NCBI GenBank assembly: GCA_018806915.1
Contig: JAGKQI010000085.1
Coordinates: 496,001 to 560,000, forward strand
Direction of reading: 5' to 3'
DNA length: 64,000 bases
From: Phytophthora colocasiae
Taxonomy: Eukaryota; Oomycota; Peronosporomycetes; Peronosporales; Peronosporaceae
A program made the translations under genes and the position numbers. The notes under the pieces were generated by a model. That model saw only the letters and a program-made list of their open reading frames with translations. It was not told the DNA's origin and made no database searches. The first letter of the stretch is position 1. The number at the start of each line of letters is the position of its first letter. Below are positions 11,772 to 30,117 of this stretch, in pieces.

Positions 11772-13061
11772 ATGGCACCACGCAGCGTCCAGCGCTCGCA
11801 GCAAGAGCACCAGCAGTCTGTACTAGCCATGCTTGACGAGCGAGACTACGAGAGGAGAACAGAGCTGGCCCAGTTCTCTCGTCAAGCTCCTGAGAATGAC
11901 GCTGCCGAGGAACTCGACTCGCCCTGCCCCATCCTCGACTCTTGGTACGACGACAGCGGAGCTGACGCAGTCCGTCGCCTCACCAACTTCTCACCCAGGG
12001 AGTTCAACCGTCTTTGGGCTAGCGTGAGGTCTCACGTAGCTCGCTATTGGAACGTCGGTCGAGGGCGACGCTCAGCTCTTACCGGCAAGGATGTATTCTT
12101 CATGACCCTGTCCGTACTTAAACATGGAGGGACCTGGGATATGAATGCAGACGTATTTCGCATCAAAACCCCCACATTTATAAAGACTATCACGGGCTTT
12201 TTACGTGTGATTGCCCCAAAGCTGTACGGCGACTGGGTGGTTGCCAAGGCTGACGAGTGCACCATGCGCAATTTGGTGACTTCCGGGCGCACGTTTTCGA
12301 ACTTCCCGTGCGCGCTTTACGCCACCGATGTGACCTTTCAGCAATCGAATCGGCCTGCCGGGAATATGGCGGAAGTAATGCCGTTTTACAGCGGCAAACA
12401 CAAACTTTATGGCCTTAAGGTGGAGGTTTCGGTCAGTCCTCGTGGTTTCGCAGTTAACTGCAGCGACCATGCTCGTGGCAATACGCCAGATATCACTATA
12501 TTCAGGAACAATTCAGAGTTCCACGATGCGGCTCGACTAAAGTCCGAAGCGGACCGGAACCTTGGCGACGGTGGGCCACTTTTGAAAGTTTTCCGGACGA
12601 GTGGGCGGTACTGGCAGACAAGGGCTATCAAGGTCTGGCCGAGCAAAAGCGCTGCATCCACCCCAAAAAGGCACGAACCTTTCTCGCTCGACCAGCAATT
12701 TATCGACGATGTCTCCAGCGACCGCGTGATCGTGAAGAATTATTTTGGTAGATTGTGTCTTTTGTGGCGTATTTGCTCTGATAAGTATCGATGGGGAGAG
12801 GAATTGTACGACGACATCTTTCAAGTGTGTGCCAGCCTGACGAATTTTCATGTCGAGTACAATCCTTTGCGTGAGGAGAGCGCAGAGGAATACGCCCAGC
12901 GTGAGCACCGCCTGCTTGCTATTGGAAAAGAGAGGGCTCGAAAGCGCCGGATTTCTCAAGACAAATACCGCCGTCGCAAGCGGCTTCGCCACCGAATGTC
13001 GCTTGATGATCTGCCACGCCACAACGACACTGATGCCGACTCAGAAGAGACACAGATGTAA
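11772..13061 (+). pseudogene. DDE transposase of the 2.3-kb DNA transposon, frame-damaged
   Basis: The 429-residue frame starts at the ATG at 11772. An N-terminal helical region with GRRSALTGKDVFFMTL precedes the catalytic core: YATDVTFQ (first Asp) and YSGKHKLYGLKVEV, then GNTPDITIF (probable second Asp). The segment from 12590 to about 12665 is out of frame: the alternative frame reads FPDEWAVLADKGYQGLAEQK, the conserved block, and the original frame resumes at about 12670, next to a CCCCAAAAAGG run. Two compensating indels are implied. At the position of the third acidic residue (usually VENYFGRL) the sequence reads VKNYFGRL, with AAG at 12735-12737. The C-terminus is Arg/Lys-rich. The enzyme is unlikely to be active. 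Family assignment rests on motifs only. Confidence 0.7.
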
Positions 13062-14037: not shown

Positions 14038-14041
14038 CAAC
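14038..14041 (+). repeat. left target-site duplication of the gypsy composite
   Basis: CAAC at 14038-14041 is repeated at 24863-24866, outside the inverted LTR, so the duplication brackets the whole composite and not the two-LTR element alone. Confidence 0.7.
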
Positions 14042-14881
14042 TGTAACAGGATGTCACGATCGACGGACGCGATACCGACAGACGGGCGATGTGGACGCTT
14101 GATGGACGTCCGTGAGTTGGACACGATGGACTGGAAGAGCTGCAGCACGAGTGGGAGAAGTGCTGGCGGTCTCGGGAATGGCGAACGACAGGGGCGCAGG
14201 CCAATGAGTGTGGCCGCCTTCTACGAGTACGTGTACGGGAGCACGGAAGTGCACGACGAGGTGGCGGAGCAGTGGTACGATGAGGGGTCGAGCCAGCTGC
14301 GAGCTGATGGATACAGTGAGAAGGGATACCGGAGACCTTGAAGTACGAGGACCGGCCGATGAACGAAGGGCTGAAAGGCTCGCTTTGAAACGAGAGCTGG
14401 AGAGCTCACTACAAAATTTGCAGTCTGCTTGAGAGCAAGCAGAACGCAACCGAAGAGGAGCGCAAGGCTTCAGACGGCAGTGACGAACGGCGAGGACTGA
14501 GCGGGCAGCGAACGGGACTGGGCGACAACTGGAAGGCGGCGGCGACTGGAAGTGCTTTGGTGAGTACTCCGACAGCTGTGCGAGCGACTTCACGTCACCT
14601 GGAGGGTCTCAACGGTGTCGGCGGGCTCGGGACGAACTGTGAGGAGTTGACGGACGAAGGTTTGGCAGTGTGTGAGACGAACGAGACAAACGAAAGTAGG
14701 CATTAAGAGTAGTGTCTATTCAATAAATAGGGTCGCAGCACGAAGCTACGGGCCCGGCGCAGCAACAAGTGGTTGCTGTCGGCCAGAACGTGTTAAGTAC
14801 ATACGAAGTGGACGGGACGCAGGAGCCAAGAGCAATACGACTTGCTCAACGTGCCGGGCAAGATAAAAGGCAAACGCTACA
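14042..14881 (+). repeat. 5' LTR of the gypsy composite
   Basis: Begins TGTAACAGG, ends GCTACA directly before the PBS; 840 bp. The last 400 bp or so is nearly identical to the other two LTRs, whereas the first 400 bp is clearly diverged from them. Confidence 0.85.
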
Positions 14882-14899
14882 TGGTGGTCATACAGGGGC
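14882..14899 (+). other. primer-binding site
   Basis: TGGTGGTCATACAGGGGC, directly abutting the LTR end, 18 nt beginning with TGG. Its exact reverse complement sits at 24013-24030. tRNA identity not determined. Confidence 0.8.
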
Positions 14900-14910
14900 A
14901 ACTTCGAAGA

Positions 14911-17314
14911 ATGACGAGACAAATGACAAGTACGAGAACGGCACTGACGGCGCCGAAAGAGAAAAGAGCTTCGAGAACACGGCGTTCACGAGTTCGAAGC
15001 AGCACTGAGAAGAAGACTGAGAACAATGAGGCGAGCGAAGACAACCGCGAATCGGACGACGATGAAGAGAAGGCGTTACCGGTACCCACTCCTTCCCTCA
15101 CAACGGCAAATAGTTCAACGGTGGCTGGCATTGATGAAGCAGCGGCAGTTAACGAAGAGCGGCAGGAAGTTGAAAACCCAACAGCGCTCCGCGAAGAAGA
15201 AGATCGGCTGGCACCAGCGCAACCGGATCAACAGGCCAACGAAATGGAACCAAGAGGGCGAAGATCTGTTACAGCAGCACGAACTTCCGGTGACCTTGGC
15301 ACTGCAGACGAAATGGACCTTCAGGAGTTGGGCGAGGCTCTAAGGAAAATGTACGACCGGGTGCGCATACTACAACGGGAGCGTATGCCTGAAGCAGATA
15401 CGCCACAGCTGGAAGCCGACGAGCGACGTGTGGTGGAGGAATTACCGCACGACGGTGACGAACGGGATGAGTACGGGCGAGATGTTCGGCCTCGCTACCA
15501 GGACGAAGATAGCGACGGCGGACAAAGAGCACCACTGCACCGCGAACATGAACGAGAAGCAAGACGAGCAGTACGTAGGCGCCTTGACGACGACGAACCA
15601 CGAGACCGTGGACGACGACACGGGAACGAACCAGGACGACACGGACGCCGATCCAGGAGCGAAGCACGACGGCGTGGAGGGAACCGCGGGCGCCACGACC
15701 GACATCCAGTGCGACGACGAGCACACCATGATGGCGATCCATCAGACGACGACAGCTCTGACGATTCGGAACAAGGACATGTTAAAGGAGCACCCAGCGA
15801 CGATGGAAGCAGCGGCGGCAGCAGCTCCGAAACGAGTAGTGAAAGTTCAAGCGACGAGAGCGACCGAAGCAGGTCACGAAGCGCGAGGGGAATGTACGAA
15901 CGGCGCGAGGAACGGCACGATCGCCGAAGACATGAACGGCGTGACCGACGGGAACGACGCGACCGACGTGGACGACGCGAGCGACGCGGTAGGCACGAGC
16001 AGCCTGAGCAACGCGAACGGGAAGAACGGCGACGACGAGCCACGCAGCGAAGTATCAAGGACTTGGAGCTTCCGGTGTTCACGCCAGAGTCAGGGATCTC
16101 GGTCTCAACGTGGATCGATCGAATCGACCTAGCACTTGAAGGAGCGCGAGAATCTGGACGTGGTGACTGGTCCGATAAGGCCTTGTACTTCATCTTGGGC
16201 AACAAGTTAGCTGAGAACGCGGCACGATGGTGGGTCAACCGAGATCGAAGGACGCCAGCACGAGAACGCACGTGGACTCATTTGAAGAGAGGTCTGTTGC
16301 AGCGGTACGCACCACCGCAGAACTTGGAGGATGCTGAATGGAGAGTGAACACGCGAATGATGATAGCCGGCGAGTCGTACGCCGACTATGCCGCTGGATT
16401 GCGAGAGGCTGCCGACAGAAATCCAGTGGAAGAGAGAGTTTTCCTTGCCCAATTCTATAGAAACTTGGACCGGACGACAAGACAGTTGGTTAAGCAACCA
16501 CCGGTTCCGAAGACGCTGGAGAAGGCTGTGAAGAAGGCGACTCAGTTGAGCGACCCGTTGGAGAATGTGGCGCGAGGAATGCATAACATTGGGCAGACGT
16601 TCCCAGCTGCGCATGCGACGCATCTGGTGCAAGTGAATGGACCCAGCGGTACGACGGTGATGATTCCAGGTGTCGGTGGAGTGAGTGTTCCCGGAGAAGT
16701 AGCAGGTGCCGCAACTGAAACAGGAGGACGAGCAGCGACTGAGACAGCGGAACAATTGGCGTTGTTCACGAATCCTCAAGGCGTGTATAATCGACTCACG
16801 GGCATGATCAGAAGATACCGGGCGAGCGATGGAACGGACGATTCTGGGAACCGAAGCCGGCGAGCAAGCCGCGTGCGCGGAAGAGTGGTGCCAGCGAGAC
16901 CAAGCCACCTGCGAAGAAGGTTAAAAACGCAAGCAACGGAACCAAGCGGTGAAGAGTCAGATACCCCACCAAAGACGGCAAAGGACGAAGGCAGCAGTGA
17001 AGCAGGCTGGTACAAGCGACAGCCGACAGGGCGAATTGCGTCGGGAAAACGGCGAAACTAGCGGCAGCAGAGAGTGTCGGCGATGCGGTGGTAAAGGCCA
17101 TTGGTCAATGCAGTGTCGAACGAACCCCGGTGCTTTGCGTGCAACCAGTGGGCCATTTGCGAGGATGTGCACCGACAGTGAGGCCAAGGCCCGGAACGAC
17201 GAGTACATGCGCACACGCGGGCGAAGCCTCTGGCCAAGTCGGAAAACGAGCAGCGAACGACGTAGCGGGGATACGGCGTTCGACAGTGATGAACGAACCC
17301 CTTGGGAAGAGTGA
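14911..17314 (+). pseudogene. gypsy gag, with the zinc knuckle in another frame
   Basis: The frame from the ATG at 14911 to a stop at 17061 has a long Arg/Asp/Glu-rich low-complexity region (about residues 60-380), then a Gag core: LPVFTPESGISVSTWIDRI, then ARWWVNRDRR and the conserved YADYAAGLREAA region. The CCHC knuckle CRRCGGKGHWSMQC lies in the next frame (16949-17314). Separation of capsid and nucleocapsid by a frame change is decay or, less likely, a programmed shift. Retrotransposon Gag packages the RNA in virus-like particles. Confidence 0.8.
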
Positions 17315-20300
17315 AGCGACGGAAATTGGCGTGAGCCGCAAGGCAGAACGGAGCGAAGGCGGTGTGACTACAATGCAGGACGAGAAAGTGTTGACGAGCG
17401 ACGACATTGTCGAGTGGCAACAGATTATGAAGGACGACGAGATGATCTTCAACCGACTGCAGGCCGAGAAGTACGTATCTACGTTGAGACCAGCGATGGC
17501 CACGACGCGGTATACTCGGAGTGCAAAGGAGCAAGACGAACGGAGGTACGACGCGGGACGAAAACAGCGGGCAGATAGCGCGACGGACCGACGCCAACCT
17601 GGGGAAGGCGCAGCGGCGGTGGTGACGCCAGCGGCAGTGAACAGAACCGCGCGGACGAACAATGCGGACAGGGTAAGCCCGACGTCGACGATGCAGAAAG
17701 CAATAGCGGTGAATGTCAATACGAACGAGACGACGGGCGACGAAGCTTTGCACATGGGCGACGCGACCAGTAGTACAGAGGCGGCGGTGGCGAATGTCGA
17801 TCCTGCAGTGAATACAGAGAAGGAGCTGGGTATGCTCGACATTGAAGTTGGGGCGGTAAGAGCAACGCGTACTGAGCCCGACCGTGTAGTGAGAGGCGAT
17901 GCCAGAGGAATAACGACCACCAAGGATCCCGATGAATGCAACCGGCCCGCGAAAGACTCGGAAGCGAACGACGGCGACTCAACGGGTGATGAGCAGGACG
18001 GTGACGATACGGCGTTGACTAGCGAACTGCTGAAAGCTCGACAGGCACGGCGGCGGAAGCGACGAATGGCCAAACGCAGAAGGACCCGCGAGAAAGAAGC
18101 GGAGAAGCGCGCTGCACGAGACCAAGAGACCAACCGTAAACGTGAGGCAGTAATCCGGCAAATTCGACGAGCACGAGACGCCGAGGAAGTCTTGAAGCAT
18201 CTGCATGAACGTGGTCATGAGACTGGAGCCGACGACGATGGTGCGACGAACGGGGAAACGAAGGAACGAGCTCGAGTAAGCTTGGTGAAACAGCAGTTGA
18301 ACCGGAATGACGAACAGCAGTCGATTGAGACGGAGACTGTGGAGTATATTGGTGCGGAAGATGGGTTACCGACAGCCACCGTGACGGTATCGGGAACTCC
18401 GAGAGACGTGAAGCTGGACAGTTGCGCGAGGTACACGATCGCTGGCACAGACTGGATGGCGCTGGGTGACAAGGTTTCGGACACGGCACCAGTGGATTAC
18501 GTCGAAGGTATCGGAGGCTTCCTGCTGGACGTTATCGGGGTATGGAGTTTCGACCTCATCAGTGTGTTCGGAGAACAGATACGCGTGGAGGCATGCATTG
18601 TAGCGGGTTGTACGGACGAGTTTCTACTGGGGATCGACTTCCTCCAGGCGCGAGAGGCAACGATGGACTTCAGTCGTAACGAAGTACGGTACAGTGACGA
18701 TGGTCGATCGGTGGTGATTCCGTTTCGGACGAATGATGGTGACGGAGGACGCAAAGTGGCGGCAGTGCGTGTTGCTGGGAGAACGAAGCTTGCAGCACGA
18801 ACGGTAACTCCAGTAGAAGTATCGGTAGCGGCCAAGGACGGTGAGCGCGGTATGTTCATTCCGACGAGAAGTACGGGGGCGGTTCTGTTGGCAGCGACGG
18901 TAACAACAGCGAAGGATGGCAAAGCGTGGGTGCCTGCCGTCAACGCGAATGATCGAGCAGCCAATCTACCAAACAAACGAGAACTCGGAACCTGGATCCC
19001 GATGGATGAAGACATGACGATCCTCGAGATGAACAAGGAGCTACGGACGGAACGACTGAACGACTGGATGAATGAGTTGGGCGACGGCGAGACGCCACTC
19101 AGTAACGAGAAGGACATACATATCGGAGTTGAAGAAAGGGATGCACGTGAATTGGTAATGAAGCTTTTGCGCGTTTATCGAGGGCTTTCGAGCAATGAGA
19201 GTGACTGTCCACCAGCTACAGCATTAAGCATACAGCACCACATCGATACGGGCGAGACGGCACCAATAATGCAGAAGAGGAGACGGCAAGCACAAGCAGA
19301 AGACCAGATCATTAACGAAAACGTGGAAACGATGTTGAAAGCAGGAGTGATCGAAGAAGGCAATGGAGCCTGGGGCTTCCCGGTTGTGTTGGTGAGGAAA
19401 AAGGATGGAGAGGTTCGGTTTTGTGTCGACTACCGAGCACTCAACAAGGTGACGAAGAAGGACGTGTATCCTTTGCCCCGCATTGACGAAACATTAGAAG
19501 CACTTGGAGGAGCTCTACTCTTCACTACCTTGGACTTGAAGGCAGGGTATTGGCAGATTTTAGTGGCTCCGGAAGATCGAGATAAAACAGCGTTCACAAC
19601 GAAGAAGGGTTTGTATCGGTTCATCAGAATGCCGTTCGGACTCACTAACGCACCTTCGACCTTCCAACGCATGATGAATAGTGTACTGAGAGGCTTGACG
19701 TGGAGTACGTGTCTGGTGTACTTAGACGACATAGTGGTTTTCACTCGGGGAGGAATCGAGAGACACATCGTGGAGTTGGCGACGGTGTTGGAGCGGCTGG
19801 CGACGGCTGGTTTGACACTGAAACTGAAGAAGTGTCGGTTTGCGATGAGATCCATGGAGTACTTGGGTCACGAGCTGAGCAATGAAGGGGTACGGCCACT
19901 ACAGAGATTGATCACGGCGGTGCAGAACTTCCCTACGCCACGAGATGCAGTCGAAGTGAAGCGGTTTGTACATTTAGCAGGCTACTACCGGCGATTTGTG
20001 GAAGGCTTTGGTTCGCTTATGGCCCCAATGACTAAACTACTGAGGAAGAATGTTAAATGGGAATGGACGGACGCGCAGGTGAACGCGTTTGAGCGAGTAA
20101 AGGACATTTTGACGAGTAAGCCGTTGTTGGTTTACCCCGACTTCCGACGGGATTTTCGAGTGGTGACGGACGCGAGCCGAGTGGGTTTAGGCGCGTGTTT
20201 GATGCAGGATCACGGCAGTGGATGGCAGCCGGTGGCTTATGCCAGCAAAGTGAACAACGAAGCCGAGAGCAAGTACGGAATCACGGAGTTAGAATGTTTG

Positions 20301-20837
20301 GCGGTTGTTTGGGCAGTAAAGTTATTTCGACCGTACCTGTATGGGAGGAAGTTCGTGATCATCACTGATCACTCGGCGTTGAAGTGGTTGATGACCAGTG
20401 CCAATCTGACAGGGAAACTACACCGTTGGGCGTTGACATTACAGGAGTTTAACTTTGAAGTCGAGTATCGACCGGGGACTACGAACGTGGTAGCAGATGC
20501 ACTCTCCAGAGCACCTGTGGCAGCACCCGTACAAGCAGCGGTTGGCAGAAGACGGAGGGCACGGCGACGAGCACGGATGACGGAGATGACGGCTGGGACG
20601 GCAATGAACAGTTGCGTGGATCGAGGGCCGGACGTTGAGGACGACGCGGCGACTACACGGACGAATGATCAAGACACCGAGAAGAACGTGCCACGGGGCA
20701 AGTTGTTAGCGACGAACGAGCAGCGGAATGGACCGACGAAGACGAGTGCACCTTCAACCGAACGAGGAGATGTACCCGAACGAGGCTTACGCAGACGACG
20801 GGCGAACGATACAACGCGAACCGGCAAGGGAGTTTAG
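17088..20837 (+). pseudogene. gypsy pol: protease, reverse transcriptase, RNase H
   Basis: Long frame of 1,249 residues; the first 300 or more are spacer-like and charged. The protease resembles retropepsin with DSCARYTIAG, where the usual DSGA is altered to DSCA, and an LLGIDFL flap-distal motif. RT follows: VRFCVDYRALNKVT, LDLKAGYWQI, MPFGLTNAPSTFQ and the YLDD box. RNase H has FRVVTDASRVGLGA, ELECLAVVWAV and TDHSALKWL. The frame ends with two nearby stops (20835 and 20844) before the integrase frame. A start was not determined, since pol is normally expressed from the gag start. Confidence 0.85.
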
Positions 20838-20927
20838 ACGGGATGAGCCCCTGTTGACGACGGTATCGAGTGACCAGACGAAGCGGCAGATCAGTGCGGT
20901 GTCGACGGCGGAGCTACGTGCGGTACA

Positions 20928-23070
20928 GTGCGCAGTACGAACGAGTCAGCGTCGGATACCATGATGGCGGCGGTGAATAATACTCCGGCAGTAGCGACGG
21001 ACAGCACTCCAGCGATGACGGTGGAAGCGGCGGGATCACGACGAGGAACGCAGACGAACAGTGAATCGGCACGGCCACGCACGAGAGCTGCCAAACGACG
21101 AGAAGACGAACGATTGTGGCGAGAGGAAGCCATTCGGGCGCTGAACGAGATGGCGGTCGATGATGGCGACGACGGTGTTGAAATGTTGGCGGATAGTGAG
21201 CGACCGGCGGTGAACATGGCGAACAACGTGCGGGCAGCCACGACGAATGACGCGGTGAACGTGTCGGACAACATGCAGGCAGCTACGACGACAGTGATGA
21301 TGAAGGATGCTGGGACAACGGAAGCGATATCGGCGGACACGAGTAGTGATGGACCAGCCGAGGGGCATCGAGAACACGTTGGTGAAGTGTCAATTGAATC
21401 TGGGGTGTCGCGCGAGAATGAGATGCGAGCTAATGAACGACTGGTGACGACGGAACGCGACGGAGTCCGGCGTGCAGAACGTGTAGAGCGAATTGAGCAG
21501 CGACGGATTGCTGAGCAGACACTGCAGTTGACGAACGACGAGATCCGAGAAGCACAGCGAAAGAGCACGATGGTGAAGCGGTTAGTGGACTCAGGATTTC
21601 ACCGAGGACGAAAGGTAACGACGGTGTACGGATTAGCGGTGATCGAGACGACGGAAGGGCAGCGTGTGATATTGCCACCGGCGTTGTGGCCCGTGGTCTT
21701 CAAGGAGCACCATGATTCCGTGTGGGCAGGTCATTTGCGTGCACCGCACACTTATGCGAGGATTGCGGCGATTTACTGGTGGCCGGGACTGAGTAAGGAG
21801 GTAAAACGATGGGTGCGAGGTTGCCAGGAGTGTGGCAGTAGGAAGGCGAGGCCGAGAGAGGTGATTCCACCACTGAGAAGCTTAAGAGGTGGCGATGTCG
21901 GCGACAGATGGGCGTTGGATGTGGCTGGCCCATTACCAGCGACGGACGGAGGCAACCGGTTTGTGATTGCTGCCGTAGAATACGTTACGAGATATGTTGT
22001 CGCGGCCACAGTGAAGCAGCACACCGCAGAGGACATCGCGAGGTTTCTGATGAAGAATGTGGTACTTCGGTTTGGTACATTTCGCGAGTTGCTGACAGAT
22101 AGAGCCCCAGAGATGGCAGGACGAGCGATCGAGGAGCTAGTGGTGCTTTTGCAGGCTGAGCAGACCACTGCTGTACCACACAAACCGCATTTGATTGGAT
22201 TAGTTGAGAGGTTCAACAGGACGTGGAAGGACATGGTGGCCACGTACATGCAACGACGAAGCAGCGCGATTGGGACCAGTGGGTGGACTTTGCTGTGTAT
22301 TCCTATAATTCAGGCCGACATTCGACAGTAGCGCTGTCGCCTAACGAACTAATGATGGGGAGAAAGTTGAGGAGTCCCAACGAGCTACTACGCGCAACGA
22401 GAAGAACCGAGGCGGGGAGCTGAACGCCTATCACGAGAAATTGGTGGCGACGCGTTGAAAGGAGCCACGAGTGTGAATTGTCGCGAGTTCGTGAGCAGAA
22501 ACGGCAAGCGAGGTATTATAATCGTAAAGTACGGAGGCGTCGAAACTTTGTGGCGGGAGACCGGGTGTGGATGTACAAACCACCACGCGGTGCTAAGGCG
22601 ACAAGCTGGTTCATCAGTGGATGGGGCCGCTAAGAATAGTGGAGCCCGCTGGATATGACAATTTTGTGTTGGAACGGGAAGACGTTGAGGGCAAGAAAGA
22701 GAGGATCATCGCGCATGTTTCCTTTTTGGTTTCCTACTACTATCCGGCAGACTTCTTAAAAGCGGCGGCAGAAGACATCGATAGAGAGATTGAATACGAG
22801 GAAGACCGTGTGAATGAACCGACGGCATACGAAACTGTTGGCACAACGGCGGCGGCAGTACAGGCGGCAACGGCTGCACGAGGCAAGAAGAGAAGTCGAC
22901 GAGCAGTTCCAGGTGCGGACAAGAGGCCACGACAGGACGAGCTCCTGGTGGAACTCCGAAGCGAGGAGGAGACGGAACGCTGCTGGACAGTACGTGCTGG
23001 AATACGAATTACAGCCCGAGCGAGTTTGGCGAAGACTACAGAACAGGAACATGGCAAACTCCAACGATGA
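20928..23070 (+). pseudogene. gypsy integrase and C-terminal domain, frameshifted
   Basis: 20928-22331 carries the integrase: HHCC zinc finger (HEHHDSVWAGH ... CQECGSRK) and the DDE core with WALDVAGPLP, LLTDRAPEM and GLVERFNRT. After about 22262 the sequence continues in another frame (QWVDFAVYSYNSGRHST ... NELMMGRKL, to 22423). It then moves to a third (22621-23070), with GPLRIVEPAGYDNF, a GPY/F-type module. At least two indels break the protein. Confidence 0.8.
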
Positions 23071-23139
23071 CGAAAGTACTGGGCTTCTATTGAGAAGTAC
23101 GAGATTGTTTTAGATCAGGAGAATCGTGGAAGAGTCTCC

Positions 23140-23153
23140 AAGTGGGGAAGGCG
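23140..23153 (+). other. polypurine tract
   Basis: AAGTGGGGAAGGCG immediately precedes the 3' LTR start TGTAACA. It is the expected plus-strand priming site. Confidence 0.65.
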
Positions 23154-24012
23154 TGTAACAGGAGGACACGGACGCTTGACATTTGCGAGACGCGACAGAC
23201 GAGGAGGACGCGTGGAGAACCAGTGTGGCCGAGACGTGATGAGCACGAGGAGCGGCAGCACCTGTGGGAGAAGTTCCAGCGGTCCAGAAGTACTGGCGAA
23301 CGTTCGTGGCGTGAGCCAATAAACGCCGTGGCCTTCTACGAGTACATGTACGGGAGCACGGGGTGGCGAAGCAGTGGTACGATGAGGAATTCAGAACTGG
23401 CTGCAAGCTGCTGGATACCGGAGACCTTGAAGAAGAGGAACCGGCTGACGAAGTGAAGAGCAGGATGGCTCACTTTGAAAATTACGACGGAGGGAGCAAG
23501 TGAGAGGCTCACTCTGCAACTGGCGCTGAAGAGAGCGTGTGGGATTATTGCAGGCTGCTTGAGCGTAGGCAGCACGCAACCGAACGACAGTACCAGGCTT
23601 CGGACGGGAGTGACGAACGGCGAGGACTGAGCGGGCAGCGAACGGGACTGGGCGACAACTGGAAGGCGGCGGCGACTGGAAGTGCTTTGGTGAGTACTCC
23701 GACAGCTGTGCGAGCGACTTCACGTCACCTGGAGGGTCTCAACGGTGTCGGCGGGCTCGGGACGAACTGTGAGGAGCTGACGGACGAAAGGTTTGGCAGT
23801 GTGTGAGACGAACGAGACAAACGAAAGTAGGCATTAAGAGTAGTGTCTATTCAATAAATAGGGTCGCAGCACGAAGCTACGGGCCCGGCGCAGCAACAAG
23901 TGGTTGCTGTCGGCCAGAAAGTGTTAAGTACATACGAAGTGGACGGGACGCAGGAGCCAAGAGCAATACGACTTGCTCAACGTGCCGGGCAAGATAAAAG
24001 GCAAACGCTACA
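23154..24012 (+). repeat. 3' LTR of the gypsy composite
   Basis: Begins TGTAACAGGAGG and ends GCTACA; 859 bp. U3 differs from the 5' LTR but matches the inverted LTR. Confidence 0.85.
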
Positions 24013-24030
24013 GCCCCTGTATGACCACCA
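24013..24030 (-). other. inverted copy of the primer-binding site
   Basis: GCCCCTGTATGACCACCA, the exact reverse complement of 14882-14899, separates the 3' LTR from the inverted LTR. Read on the minus strand it follows the inverted LTR in normal LTR-PBS order. Confidence 0.9.
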
Positions 24031-24862
24031 TGTAGCGTTTGCCTTTTATCTTGCCCGGCACGTTGAGCAAGTCGTATTGCTCTTGGCTCCTGCGTCCCGT
24101 CCACTTCGTATGTATTTAACACTTTCTGGCCGACAGCAACCACTGTTGCTGCGCCAGGCCCGTAGCTTCGTGCTGCGACCTATTTATTGAATAGACACTA
24201 CTCTTAATGCCTACTTTCGTTTGTCTCGTTCGTCTCACACACTGCCAAACCTTCGTCCGTCAGCTCCTCGCAGTTCGTCCCGAGCCCGCCAAGACCCTCC
24301 AGGTGACGTGAAGTCGCTCGCACAGCTGTCGGAGTACTCACCAAAGCACTTCCAGTCGCCGCCGCCTTCCAGTTGTCGCCCAGTCCCGTTCGCTCAGTCC
24401 TCGCCGTTCGTCACTCCCGTCCGAAGCCTGGTACTGTCGTTCGGTTGCGTGCTGCCTACGCTCAAGCAGCCTGCAATAATCCCACGCCTCTTCAGCGCCA
24501 GTTGCAGAGTGAGCCTCTCACTTGCTCCCTCCGTCGTAATTTTCAAAGTGAGCCATCCTGCTCTTCACTTCGTCAGCCGGTTCCCCTTCTTCAAGGTCTC
24601 CGGTATCCAGCAGCTTGCAGCCAGTTCGAATTCTCATCGTACCACTGCTTCGCCACCCCGTGCTCCCGTACATGTACTCGTAGAAGGCCACGGCGTTTAT
24701 TGGCTCACGCCACGAACGTTCGCCAGTACTTGGACCGCTGGAACTTCTCCCACAGGTGCTGCCGCTCCTCGTGCTCATCACGTCTCGGCCACACTGGTTC
24801 TCCACGCGTCCTCCTCGTCTGTCCGTCTCGCAAATGTCAAGCGTCCGTGTCCTCCTGTTACA
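24031..24862 (-). repeat. inverted third LTR
   Basis: Reverse complement of an LTR: starts TGTAGC (LTR 3' end) and finishes CCTCCTGTTACA (LTR 5' end); 832 bp, with a few indels against the 3' LTR. Together they form a near-perfect palindrome of about 1.7 kb with an 18-nt centre. Confidence 0.9.
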
Positions 24863-24879
24863 CAACCATGGTCCAAACA

Positions 24880-25098: not shown

Positions 25099-27180
25099 TT
25101 ACGTTAGCTTGAGGGTAAAGTTGGCCAAGTCGTCCTCCGAGTAAACGTCTTCGTCTTCATCGGTACTAGCGCTGCTCTCCTGCGGTCCTTCCCTCGTGCC
25201 GACGCGAGGCTTCACGGACGGAATCAGGAGAACGTTATCTTCTGAGGCAGCGCGGTCCGAGCGTTGCTGCAATAGCTGAGTCCGTAACGCAGCTGGAGTA
25301 GGAGCAGCAGACTTGGCTGGCAACCTTGAGGCCGCATTCATCGGTGACCGTGCGGACAAACTGGCAGACAAACTAGCTGAGGACCGGGCGGACATGCTGG
25401 CCGCGCGGTGGAAACTACCTGAAAGCGTCAACGTCTCGAGATCCGACAGCAAGACGATCCCTGAAACGCTACGCGAGCTACGAGTAGAATCTGTGGACGT
25501 CGTCCGGAGCTTGGACGTTGTGACGCGCAGGTCTAGTCGCGGCGTGTACGCCCGAACATCTTCATCTGATTCGTCGTCATCGTCATCCGGTCCACTAATG
25601 CTACGCTGACTACCAACGCTACCGACACTCCGCTGGCTACGTCGACGTCTCGATCCCGAGACGGATGCGGTGGACCGCAGGTCTAGATCCGGATGCACTT
25701 GATCGAATTCCTCGTCCAGATCCAATGGAATCCCTCCTCGTGAAGAAGCTCCAAACCCTCGAAACGTGGACGCAGACATTGAGCCCATGGCAGTTGAGAG
25801 ATGTCGCGGTCTGGTGGTTGATCCGGCGCGAGATGCATTGATGCCGTTGTCCGGGCCAAACCGAGCGCAGAGAAGACACTCGCGTTTCTGACGTTCTCGC
25901 TGTTGAGGTCTTGAACCGGAACTGCCGAATCCACGCGAGCTGTCCGGAGTGAAGTTACTAATAGGTGCTGACGGTCCAGTTGCAGTCTTCAAGCAGCACT
26001 TGGAACACACACCCGATCCGCAGGACACGCACGTGTAGCACTTCCGCAACAGCGAGAATTGAGCCGAGCAGACACTGCAGCATCGCGTCTCTCTGCGCCA
26101 TGACGACGACGAGCGTACACCAGCATGGGCAGCGTGATCCTTCCACTGGTGAGTTAGCGCGCGACGGGCGCCTACCATGAGCTCCGTGCAGAACTCCCTG
26201 AAATCCGATCTCGACACCGTCTGCCCACGTCCCGATGTCGGTGGGATAAACACCGAGCAAGTCAGCACCAACTTGCAGACTAGGGGCTCCTGCGTCTCAA
26301 TAACGTCAAACAACCAGTCACGTATGAAGAATCTCGTTGCACCCGGCACTTTTGCCTTCGCCAATGACTGCGCTGACATACTGGACGCGTTGCTCAGTGC
26401 ATGCTCAGAGACGGATCGTCGGTAGACGAATCCACGGTGACGTGAATGTCCTTCATTGTTGGTCTCGGTGCATCTCGTCGCGTATTCCGCATAGCAGCAG
26501 TCGAGCACCTGTGCGTTGTGCTTGGAGAACCTGGTGGCCGTGTACTTGCGGCTCCAACGCGGGAAAGCGGTGATATCCGTGTCCGTCTCGGACGTGATGG
26601 ACGACGACGCCGAGTTCTGCGACTGCAGACGCGCGCTGGACAGCAACGCCGCGGCCTTGACGTCCTTCATGGTGTTAAGTGCCACCCAGTAGTTTTCACG
26701 CGCCGACTCGCTAGCCAGAACGTCTAGCACCGTGTCGACACTGCCTGGAACGCGTGTGATGCCACGGAACTCGAAGTCCCCGGGCTCTGTAGGGTCGCGC
26801 GTGATGCTGATGCCACGTCTGGAGGACGCCAAGGACGAGAACGAAGACGAGAGCGACGCCCCCAACGGTGACGGACCCGTGTTCGCCATGGCGGCGTTGA
26901 GAGCCTCTTGCGGCTGTGTGATACGCTTGTACAGATACACGTCGTGCACTTGCTTGAGTGCGATGTAGTGTGTGCGCGGGTCTTCCTGCCGTACGCGCGT
27001 CATCATGGAATCGGCGTGATCCCGCACGTACGGCAACATGATGGAGTTCTGCGCGCCCTCCACCTCCCAGAGCGCGGCGCCCGCGTTGTCTCCTCCTGGG
27101 AGCATGACGGGGCTGGTGGCCATGCTGCTGCTGGCGGCTGTAGAGCTGCTGTGCACGTGCTTGTCGACACTGGGCAGCAT
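25099..27180 (-). CDS. FYVE-like zinc-finger protein with START-like N-terminal domain
   Basis: 693 residues. Residues about 150-345 resemble the START-type lipid-binding fold found in many oomycete FYVE proteins (FEFRGITRVPGSVDTVLDVL, then the FFIRDWLFDVIETQEP region). Residues about 365-445 form a cysteine cluster with CSVC, CYTCVSCGSGVCSKC and a final CLLC, the eight-Cys spacing of a FYVE domain. The basic R(R/K)HHCR motif that binds PI3P is not present, so lipid specificity is doubtful. The rest is Ser/Arg-rich and probably disordered, with an acidic DDDDESDED stretch. Start chosen at the ATG at 27180, about 20 nt downstream of an initiator site. It stands upstream of, and in the same direction as, the phosphodiesterase gene. 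Confidence 0.75.
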   Translation of the reverse strand: MLPSVDKHVHSSSTAASSSMATSPVMLPGGDNAGAALWEVEGAQNSIMLPYVRDHADSMMTRVRQEDPRTHYIALKQVHDVYLYKRITQPQEALNAAMANTGPSPLGASLSSSFSSLASSRRGISITRDPTEPGDFEFRGITRVPGSVDTVLDVLASESARENYWVALNTMKDVKAAALLSSARLQSQNSASSSITSETDTDITAFPRWSRKYTATRFSKHNAQVLDCCYAEYATRCTETNNEGHSRHRGFVYRRSVSEHALSNASSMSAQSLAKAKVPGATRFFIRDWLFDVIETQEPLVCKLVLTCSVFIPPTSGRGQTVSRSDFREFCTELMVGARRALTHQWKDHAAHAGVRSSSSWRRETRCCSVCSAQFSLLRKCYTCVSCGSGVCSKCCLKTATGPSAPISNFTPDSSRGFGSSGSRPQQRERQKRECLLCARFGPDNGINASRAGSTTRPRHLSTAMGSMSASTFRGFGASSRGGIPLDLDEEFDQVHPDLDLRSTASVSGSRRRRSQRSVGSVGSQRSISGPDDDDDESDEDVRAYTPRLDLRVTTSKLRTTSTDSTRSSRSVSGIVLLSDLETLTLSGSFHRAASMSARSSASLSASLSARSPMNAASRLPAKSAAPTPAALRTQLLQQRSDRAASEDNVLLIPSVKPRVGTREGPQESSASTDEDEDVYSEDDLANFTLKLT

Positions 27181-28409: not shown

Positions 28410-30117
28410 ATGTCGCCCCTCTCAGCTTCCCAGCTACCTCCGGAGGAACTCCGCCCCGGCGAGCAGATCGCGTATTACTCGATGGCGTTTGTATGCGGCG
28501 ACCCGCGAGGATACCGCGAGGCTGTAGTATTGAGTGTCAAAACTAGCCCCGACGCGAGCACGGCGCTCAAGCTGGACTCAGGCGATATCATTGCCCCGAC
28601 GATGATGCTGAAGCGCATCGTGAACTGCTCTGGGAGACGGATCGCCGAGGGCAAAGCGCTGTGGCGCAAGCTGCGGACGTTCAAGTTGGTGGCAGGAGTT
28701 TATGACGCTCCAACACGGGCCAGCACTTTAAGTAAAAAGCCATTAAGGTGGCAGTTCAGCAGGCGTTTGCTGCTGTTTACCAAGGCGGAGGGGTATTAAG
28801 CGAGGATATTCCCAATGGGATCTTTGGGGTAAGCACCACCGCGGTCGTGACCCCAGCGACGGATTCACCGGCCTCCAGCGCCCCGAGATCACGTGCAATG
28901 TCCTCTCTAAGACGTGAATCGTGTTTCCAAAGCTGCGAACAAGGAGATACATGCGAGAATTCAGAGCCTGCCGAAGCTAACGTCGAGACGGATGCAGTAC
29001 CAGCTGATGTCGGAGATCCGCGAGGTGCGCAGACGGCCAGCGCTACAGCCGAGGGTGTAGCGCAGCTCCAGGTCAGTGGAATTGTATCAAGAACAAGTGC
29101 AGAAGAGTCTGAAAACGAGGCTTTGGCTGGCAGTCATTGTCAAGGGTCCCAGGACGTGCACGCGTTAAACGACGTTCAGTTGGTGGAGTTGAACGACTAT
29201 CTGAGGTCCATTCCAACTCGGTTGCAGCGAGCGAAAATCCGCCACCAGTCCAAGAAGCGACCTGCAAGCTGGCGTATTCCCCGATCGCGAGCGCCCGCGA
29301 CCAGAAGAAGTGCGCTGTGACCCGCAGCGGTACGAGCATATACCATGCACACACTGTGAAGGCTCGGTCGACAAAGGATATTCTACAACGCGCCGGCGTC
29401 ATCGCGCTCTTCACGTCCGGCGACCAAAGTTCTTGGGGACCAGGACCGGGACGCTGGACCTGGCGGAGGAAGTGGTTTGGCCAACGTATTACTGAGTCAT
29501 TAGTGCCCGAGGAACTCGTGTTTCCGGACATTGGTGACGGTGATCCCTGCCAATGCGTTGGGGATTGCTTCATGGACTGCTGTACGAACGCTATACTATC
29601 CATCTACTGCACCCCCGAGTGCTGCAGCTTAGGAGGAGCCTGTAGCAATTCGCCGCGCAGCCACCCGGGTCTAAAATTGTACGACACCTGTCGTGTGGGT
29701 CTTGGCGTGCACACCACCTGCCTACATTGAGGTGGGGATGTTGTCGGGGAGCACGTGGGGCGGTTGTTCGAGTACCCTGCCGTGTTGGAAGGCCAGCCCG
29801 CACAGGCCATCAAGCAAAACAGCGGCTACACCATGCTGCTCAACACGCAGTCGGCTTCGGGCATGTTTGTCTACGTAGAGGCATTGAAGTGCGGTTCAAT
29901 CACAAGGTTCATGAGCCACTCCTGCGACCCCAACGTGGAGTTCGTCGAGATGCATAACAGAACCAACGTCAAGGTGCTCGCACGGATGATCAAGACTGTC
30001 CTGCCTGGCACGCAGCTTACCGTCAACTACGGTGACGAGATATGGTTCAAGTGCGCGTGCGACTCCTGTTGGGTTGACCCCGATGATGAAGAAGACGGTG
30101 GACACGAAGGAGTCTAG
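28410..30117 (+). pseudogene. AWS-SET-postSET histone lysine methyltransferase, frame-broken
   Basis: C-terminal features identify a SET2/ASH1-type histone methyltransferase. These are an AWS-like cysteine region (CQCVGDCFMDCC ... CTPECC, about 29555-29650), SET residues RFMSHSCDPN and LTVNYGDE (29908-30048), and a post-SET CACDSC. Upstream, a start at 28410 opens a Ser/Pro-rich region (MSPLSASQLPPEELRPG). The frame changes at an A5 run near 28733-28738, again somewhere in 29150-29500, and twice around 29715-29745. That last pair brackets an in-frame TGA (29728-29730) within the SET domain. Breaks cluster at homopolymers, so either this is a pseudogene or the assembly has uncorrected indels. 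Substrate residue cannot be decided. Confidence 0.65.

Follow-up and report, generated by a model that had tools for sequence, protein, structure and literature searches.

A Ty3/Gypsy-type element with a third, inverted long terminal repeat in Phytophthora colocasiae: a probable accident of reverse transcription

Structure of the composite and its insertion site

We analyzed a stretch of 64,000 nucleotides from the oomycete Phytophthora colocasiae (GenBank assembly GCA_018806915.1, contig JAGKQI010000085.1, positions 496,001 to 560,000 of the forward strand), hereafter called the window, in which a retrotransposon with long terminal repeats (LTRs) is directly followed by an inverted copy of its own primer binding site (PBS) and a third, inverted LTR. 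We refer to the whole arrangement as the composite and give all positions in coordinates of the window. On the plus strand, the composite begins with a 5' LTR of 840 nt (14042-14881) that starts with TGTAACAGGA, ends with CGCTACA and is chimeric, its unique 3' (U3) region (14042-14478) belonging to a subfamily that we call A and its repeat and unique 5' regions (R-U5; 14479-14881) to another, B. The PBS of 18 nt (14882-14899) abuts this LTR without a gap and leads into the internal region (14900-23139), where Pfam matches identify gag, reverse transcriptase (RT)-RNase H and integrase. Next come a purine-rich tract adjoining the 3' LTR (23140-23153), presumed from its position only to be the polypurine tract, and the 3' LTR itself (23154-24012; 859 nt), which is of subfamily B over its full length. 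The remaining two parts lie on the minus strand, namely the PBS of the inverted arm (24013-24030; 18 nt) and a complete inverted LTR of subfamily B (24031-24862; 832 nt).

The Pfam domains found in the element are Retrotrans_gag, RVT_1, RT_RNaseH, Integrase_H2C2 and rve, carried by open reading frames (ORFs) at 14842-17061, 17088-20837 and 20928-22331 in the order RT, RNase H, integrase, which we take to be the mark of Ty3/Gypsy elements. The LTR termini TGTAACA...CTACA, the 18-nt PBS of transfer RNA (tRNA) type and a 4-bp target-site duplication are likewise those of a Ty3/Gypsy LTR retrotransposon, and on these sequence features we classify the element as one of Ty3/Gypsy type. The integrase domains lie in the ORF at 20928-22331, apart from the RT ORF at 17088-20837, so that pol is not one open frame among the listed ORFs in this copy. 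For comparison, copies of the same family were fetched from the same 92.5-Mb assembly, in which related copies beyond those fetched exist; copies and loci outside the window are given by our own handles (C10, L010 and so on). The internal region is most similar to B copies: in tiles of 250 nt, an A copy is the best match in none, and a B copy is the best match, alone or tied, in every tile except that at 18750, where C8 reaches 98% versus 97%.

The joint between the 3' LTR and the inverted arm is precise. The 18 nt at 24013-24030 and the PBS at 14882-14899 are reverse complements without a mismatch, as an earlier reading of the window from its letters alone (the sequence-only reading) had noticed, and on the plus strand the former resemble a tRNA 3' end with its terminal CCA. 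In minus-strand orientation, the inverted arm (24013-24862) consists of U3-R-U5-PBS only, and base 18 of the PBS is followed by the U5 end of the 3' LTR. When this arm is compared with the left end of the element, identity ends after exactly the LTR plus 18 nt, without internal sequence. At the U5-18 nt-U5 joint neither end is trimmed and no bases are inserted; the pattern CTACA-N18-TGTAG occurs once in the window versus 0.04 expected. The arm at 24013-24862 is thus an LTR plus 18 nt of PBS and nothing more, which is the composition of plus-strand strong-stop DNA.

Both outer ends of the composite are U3 ends, and both adjoin CAAC, read directly at 14038-14041 (left copy) and 24863-24866 (right copy). 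The two-LTR interval 14042-24012 has no such duplication, the 3' LTR being followed by GCCC. Exact 4-bp duplications flank 15 of the 16 fetched two-LTR copies of ordinary arrangement, a count that leaves out the rearranged copies C22 and C44; in the remaining copy, C19, three of the four bases match. At the composition of the window, two random 4-mers agree by chance with a probability of 0.0043. Because a duplication of the family's type stands at the outer ends and none around the two-LTR interval, the composite was most likely integrated once. The claims of the sequence-only reading that the inverted LTR is whole, that CAAC brackets the composite and not the two-LTR element, and that no duplication surrounds 14042-24012 alone are borne out by these data, which also support its inference that integration proceeded through two U3 ends.

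Two further copies of the family show signs of rearrangement by inversion. At C22:1216743-1242695 (L015-L017), two family LTRs face each other 26 kb apart in an arrangement that mimics a U3/U3 composite and is probably an inversion. As a second such composite, C22 was rejected: its outer flanks differ, and the pattern of CATG, which adjoins the U5 end of one LTR and lies outside the U3 end of the other, fits a chromosomal inversion. C44:136563-137249 (L018, L019) carries an inversion of about 0.65 kb that comprises the U3 of the 5' LTR together with its flank; we regard it as a local chromosomal inversion because its duplication ACCG recurs as CGGT beside the inverted U3.

The chimeric 5' LTR and its two companions

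The sequence-only reading had not remarked that the 5' LTR diverges strongly from the other two. It differs from the 3' LTR by 120 substitutions and 9 insertion/deletion (indel) events, and from the inverted LTR by 119 substitutions and 10 indel events. Among 14 other 5'/3' LTR pairs of the family (the pairs of C58 and C19 were left out), 13 differ by 0-7 substitutions and one, C52b, by 26, and mixing of types occurs in 0 of the 14.

The source of the divergence can be traced. Among the 40 of 73 candidates scored, the A copy on C10 matches the first 464 nt of the 5' LTR at 98-99% identity with both of its LTRs, the A copy on C52 at 97% and C101 at 95%; these 464 nt extend 27 nt beyond the point at which the 5' LTR switches from A to B. 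In the R-U5 part of the 5' LTR, identity is about 99% with B copies such as C14a and C6, 96-97% with other B copies, among them C20b and C20c, and about 87% with A copies. To place the switch, we used diagnostic columns, in which 5 A LTRs and 10 B LTRs (the 3' LTR of the window included) are each uniform and the two sets differ. All 159 such columns before the switch are of type A (99 bases, 60 gap), and all 35 columns from 14479 onward are of type B (28 bases, 7 gap). The switch therefore falls between 14478 and 14479; both bases are diagnostic and there is no ambiguous stretch. The result has zero exceptions when the window's own LTR is left out (160 A, 35 B) and when all 16 B rows are required to agree (146 A, 33 B). 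In none of the five other A LTRs, among the same scored candidates, does a U3 of A accompany an R-U5 of B. As judged from these alignments, the 5' LTR is a chimera of a subfamily A U3 and a subfamily B R-U5.

We infer that the A/B switch coincides with the U3/R border, which would make 14479 the first base of R and hence the start of transcription in this family. Other pairs of subfamilies bear on the position of this border. A and C32 last differ 6 columns before it, then share 48 identical bases, and differ next at column 52 beyond it. The remaining pairs part 1-6 columns before the border; since those that do not involve the window show new differences at columns 1-14 beyond it, the comparison of A with C32 is the one that supports the border from outside the composite. 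A switch at the presumed U3/R border points to co-packaged A and B RNAs and an intermolecular strand transfer between them. The subfamilies A and C32 (L013, L009/L010) have the first 48 bases of the putative R in common and differ in the U3 upstream, as if the family had, on more than one occasion in its history, swapped U3 regions at the R border.

The 3' and inverted LTRs are separated by 9 substitutions and 9 indel events, of which 4 substitutions and 4 indels fall on the side of the 3' LTR and 5 of each on the side of the inverted LTR. Absent from the 16 B LTR rows are 17 of these 18 differences. At columns that vary among these rows (gap-free, with two states each present in at least 2 of the 16), the two LTRs agree in 20 of 20 cases. 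The 18 differences thus fit a common template at integration followed by later change, without proving that the template was shared, and errors of assembly could account for some of the indels.

A proposed course of events and its alternatives

We consider it highly likely that a single integration event inserted an element with strong-stop DNA joined at its U5 end and with U3 sequences at both outer ends. It is also probable, though with less assurance, that the strong-stop DNA was joined before integration, that is, that the product of a reverse-transcription accident entered the chromosome once and as a unit.

The accident may be pictured as follows. RNAs of subfamilies A and B would have been packaged in one particle. 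Minus-strand R-U5 DNA made from the B RNA would have jumped at R to the 3' end of the A RNA, and the resulting U3-A/R-U5-B end would have become the left LTR of a complementary DNA (cDNA) that otherwise follows B. Two routes could lead there. In the first, plus-strand strong-stop DNA from the A-templated minus strand would be transferred to a B minus strand, a transfer of the kind proposed for asymmetric LTRs of human immunodeficiency virus type 1 (HIV-1; PMC9278108). In the second, a B minus strand would read through its PBS into R and jump to A, in the manner of the model of Sabot and Schulman (PMC1950507), and the A polypurine tract would serve as the start of a plus strand. Both routes end with one B plus-strand strong-stop DNA that has no acceptor.

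This stranded DNA would consist of U3-R-U5 and 18 nt copied from the primer tRNA. In HIV-1, plus-strand strong-stop DNA is described as ending mainly at 18 nt on the tRNA primer, before the methylated A58 (PMC13191261), and the length of the tail in the composite agrees, by analogy, with a stop before the methylated A58 of a primer tRNA. The tail, which would still be base-paired to the tRNA at the U5 end, may have been held beside the place of joining, where template jumping of the reverse transcriptase or end joining would attach the 3' end of the strong-stop DNA to the clean U5 terminus of the linear cDNA. Integrase would then act normally on the two outer U3 ends and produce the 4-bp duplication typical of the family. 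Taken as one chain of errors in one particle, from the A/B jump at R through the wrong acceptor and the capture of strong-stop DNA at U5 to U3/U3 integration, this account has our guarded preference; in it, the switch would fix the start of transcription to one base.

Several observations weigh against this account. The single 4-bp match at the outer ends could be due to chance (0.0043), no empty site was found in the assembly, each flank having matched this locus only, and elements with this PBS gave just a single such junction in the 92.5-Mb assembly. One of the substitutions in the inverted LTR is also present in the B row C97_5. The sequence-only reading had proposed aligning the three LTRs to see whether the 3' and inverted LTRs are closest; they are indeed close to each other and far from the 5' LTR, but by raw count they are not mutual nearest relatives, since a C14a LTR shows 8 differences from the 3' LTR and 10 from the inverted LTR. 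Finally, the account requires two copies of the B R-U5 and one A 3' end; if the particle held just one RNA of each subfamily, the B 5' end must have been copied twice.

The most serious alternative concerns the order of events. The U3 end of a linear cDNA and that of a separate strong-stop DNA could have been integrated at one site, the gap between U5 and PBS being closed afterwards by host end joining. This would give the same final sequence and the same 4-bp duplication. The repair of chromosomal gaps often leaves trimming or inserted bases, and the joint shows neither at either end, which makes us regard integration of two molecules as possible but rather unlikely. The sequence-only reading had held that strong-stop DNA was joined to the cDNA and the product then integrated; the match to strong-stop DNA stands, whereas that order is probable only, as the sequence would be identical after template jumping, after end joining before integration, or after integration of two molecules with later repair.

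A second alternative bears on the 5' LTR only, in which gene conversion by an A copy could have replaced the U3 once the element was integrated. Donors with a near-identical U3 exist (C10, C52, C101). A conversion tract would need to begin at, or close to, the first base of the LTR and to end exactly at the presumed U3/R border, and donor and recipient U3 are only about 66% identical, yet 159 diagnostic columns run uninterrupted. We therefore hold gene conversion to be improbable, and favor strand transfer during reverse transcription as the origin of the chimera.

Under chromosomal rearrangement, the inverted LTR and PBS would belong to a second element on the minus strand, whose left end a deletion or inversion had placed next to the first. 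Such an element would likewise begin with an LTR and PBS, and the family copies C22 and C44 look rearranged by inversion. In both, however, the duplication moves with the inverted LTR end, unlike in the composite. Breakpoints exactly at PBS base 18 and at the U5 terminus would be required together with a chance occurrence of CAAC at both outer ends, and inversion alone does not supply a third complete LTR; this explanation is quite improbable. An artefact of assembly or library, in which a fold-back read created a false inverted repeat, is very improbable: the excess of indels between the arms (9 indel events beside 9 substitutions) could include consensus errors, but 18 events distinguish the arms and speak against a simple fold-back, which moreover would have copied adjoining sequence and not ended at the LTR plus 18 nt, and CAAC is common to both outer flanks, each of which matched this locus only.

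Occurrence of the joint and comparison with known systems

The sequence-only reading had envisaged palindromic LTR composites as a distinctive product class. This was not upheld: elements with this PBS yielded a single junction in the genome. Of the 80 matches to a 101-nt query spanning the joint, the one at this locus alone covered both sides (among the 40 of 78 candidates scored). A match on C5, which reaches 12 nt beyond the LTR end (90% over its whole length), was rejected as a joint because the LTR is followed there by its own duplication, TATC. Allowing up to three mismatches, the joint sequence occurs at 6 places in the assembly, exactly at this one and with three mismatches at the other 5. 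The arrangement CA-18 nt-TG, searched for in any family with this PBS, occurs at 11 places, with palindromic arms matching at 40 of 40 positions here and at 7-13 of 40 in the other 10. U5 ends facing each other 0-30 nt apart were found at 13 places, compared with 43 in a reversed control; the 18-nt sequence is in none of the other 12 printed spacers, and four other places inspected (29041-29062 in the window, L010, L060 and L061) contain no joint of this family. As a denominator, CTACA abuts the PBS at 132 places (66 per strand, two of them in the composite) with no more than one mismatch across all 23 nt, 100 of the 132 being listed. The locus L061 (C83:1492840-1493080) contains a palindrome of about 50 bases per arm centered on CGCTACATGTAGCG and is unlike the LTR family beyond its center.

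No description of a composite of inverted LTR and PBS was found among the titles and abstract beginnings listed in searches of open-access papers, a weak negative since subscription journals lie mostly outside these searches. The composite looks like a well-preserved, one-off copying accident rather than a novel type of element. Software that annotates elements by two direct LTRs would probably report it as an element lacking a duplication and a solo LTR. If our reading is true, the composite is a chromosomal record of concerted integration by a Ty3/Gypsy integrase with two U3 ends, plus-strand strong-stop DNA can be captured and is not solely transferred, and the chimeric 5' LTR marks a minus-strand transfer at base resolution and gives a predicted transcription start site. 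In the neighborhood of the composite, the window holds upstream an ORF with a DDE_Tnp_4 transposase domain (11772-13061) and just downstream a minus-strand ORF of 693 amino acids (25099-27180) with a weak match to the FYVE zinc finger, below the Pfam cut-off.

Inverted LTR arrangements are known from unintegrated DNA, where they occur among the products of autointegration and the two-LTR circles described for Ty1 and retroviruses (PMC4751563). These are circles that arise when internal sites are attacked or when the two LTR ends undergo end joining (PMC4751563), and we infer that they predict neither a U5-18 nt-U5 joint nor a chromosomal copy with two U3 ends. An autointegration product was considered for the composite and ruled out, as a U5 end is joined to a free PBS-LTR end with no further internal sequence at the joint. 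Asymmetric LTRs are described for HIV-1 proviruses, where the asymmetry is a deletion, located in the 3' LTR in 24 of 26 cases (PMC9278108); in the composite, by comparison, a whole U3 comes from another subfamily and an extra strong-stop copy is joined.

The closest comparison is with the complexes that Sabot and Schulman described in 2007 as products of template switching by LTR retrotransposons in Triticeae, rice and maize (PMC1950507). Those complexes share with the composite three LTRs and one target-site duplication around the whole, and are explained by two co-packaged RNAs between which an abnormal jump from R to R took place, followed by a single integration (PMC1950507). Their third LTR stands between two internal regions, apparently in direct orientation, and their outer ends are ordinary (PMC1950507). 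The composite, unlike them, has one internal region, and its third LTR is inverted, lies outside, is accompanied by the PBS only and leaves both outer ends as U3 ends. Its outermost LTRs also lack the high similarity that serves as a criterion for the grass complexes, the 5' and inverted LTRs differing by the 119 substitutions and 10 indel events given above. The composite works like the template-switching complexes of grasses and is structurally not one of them.

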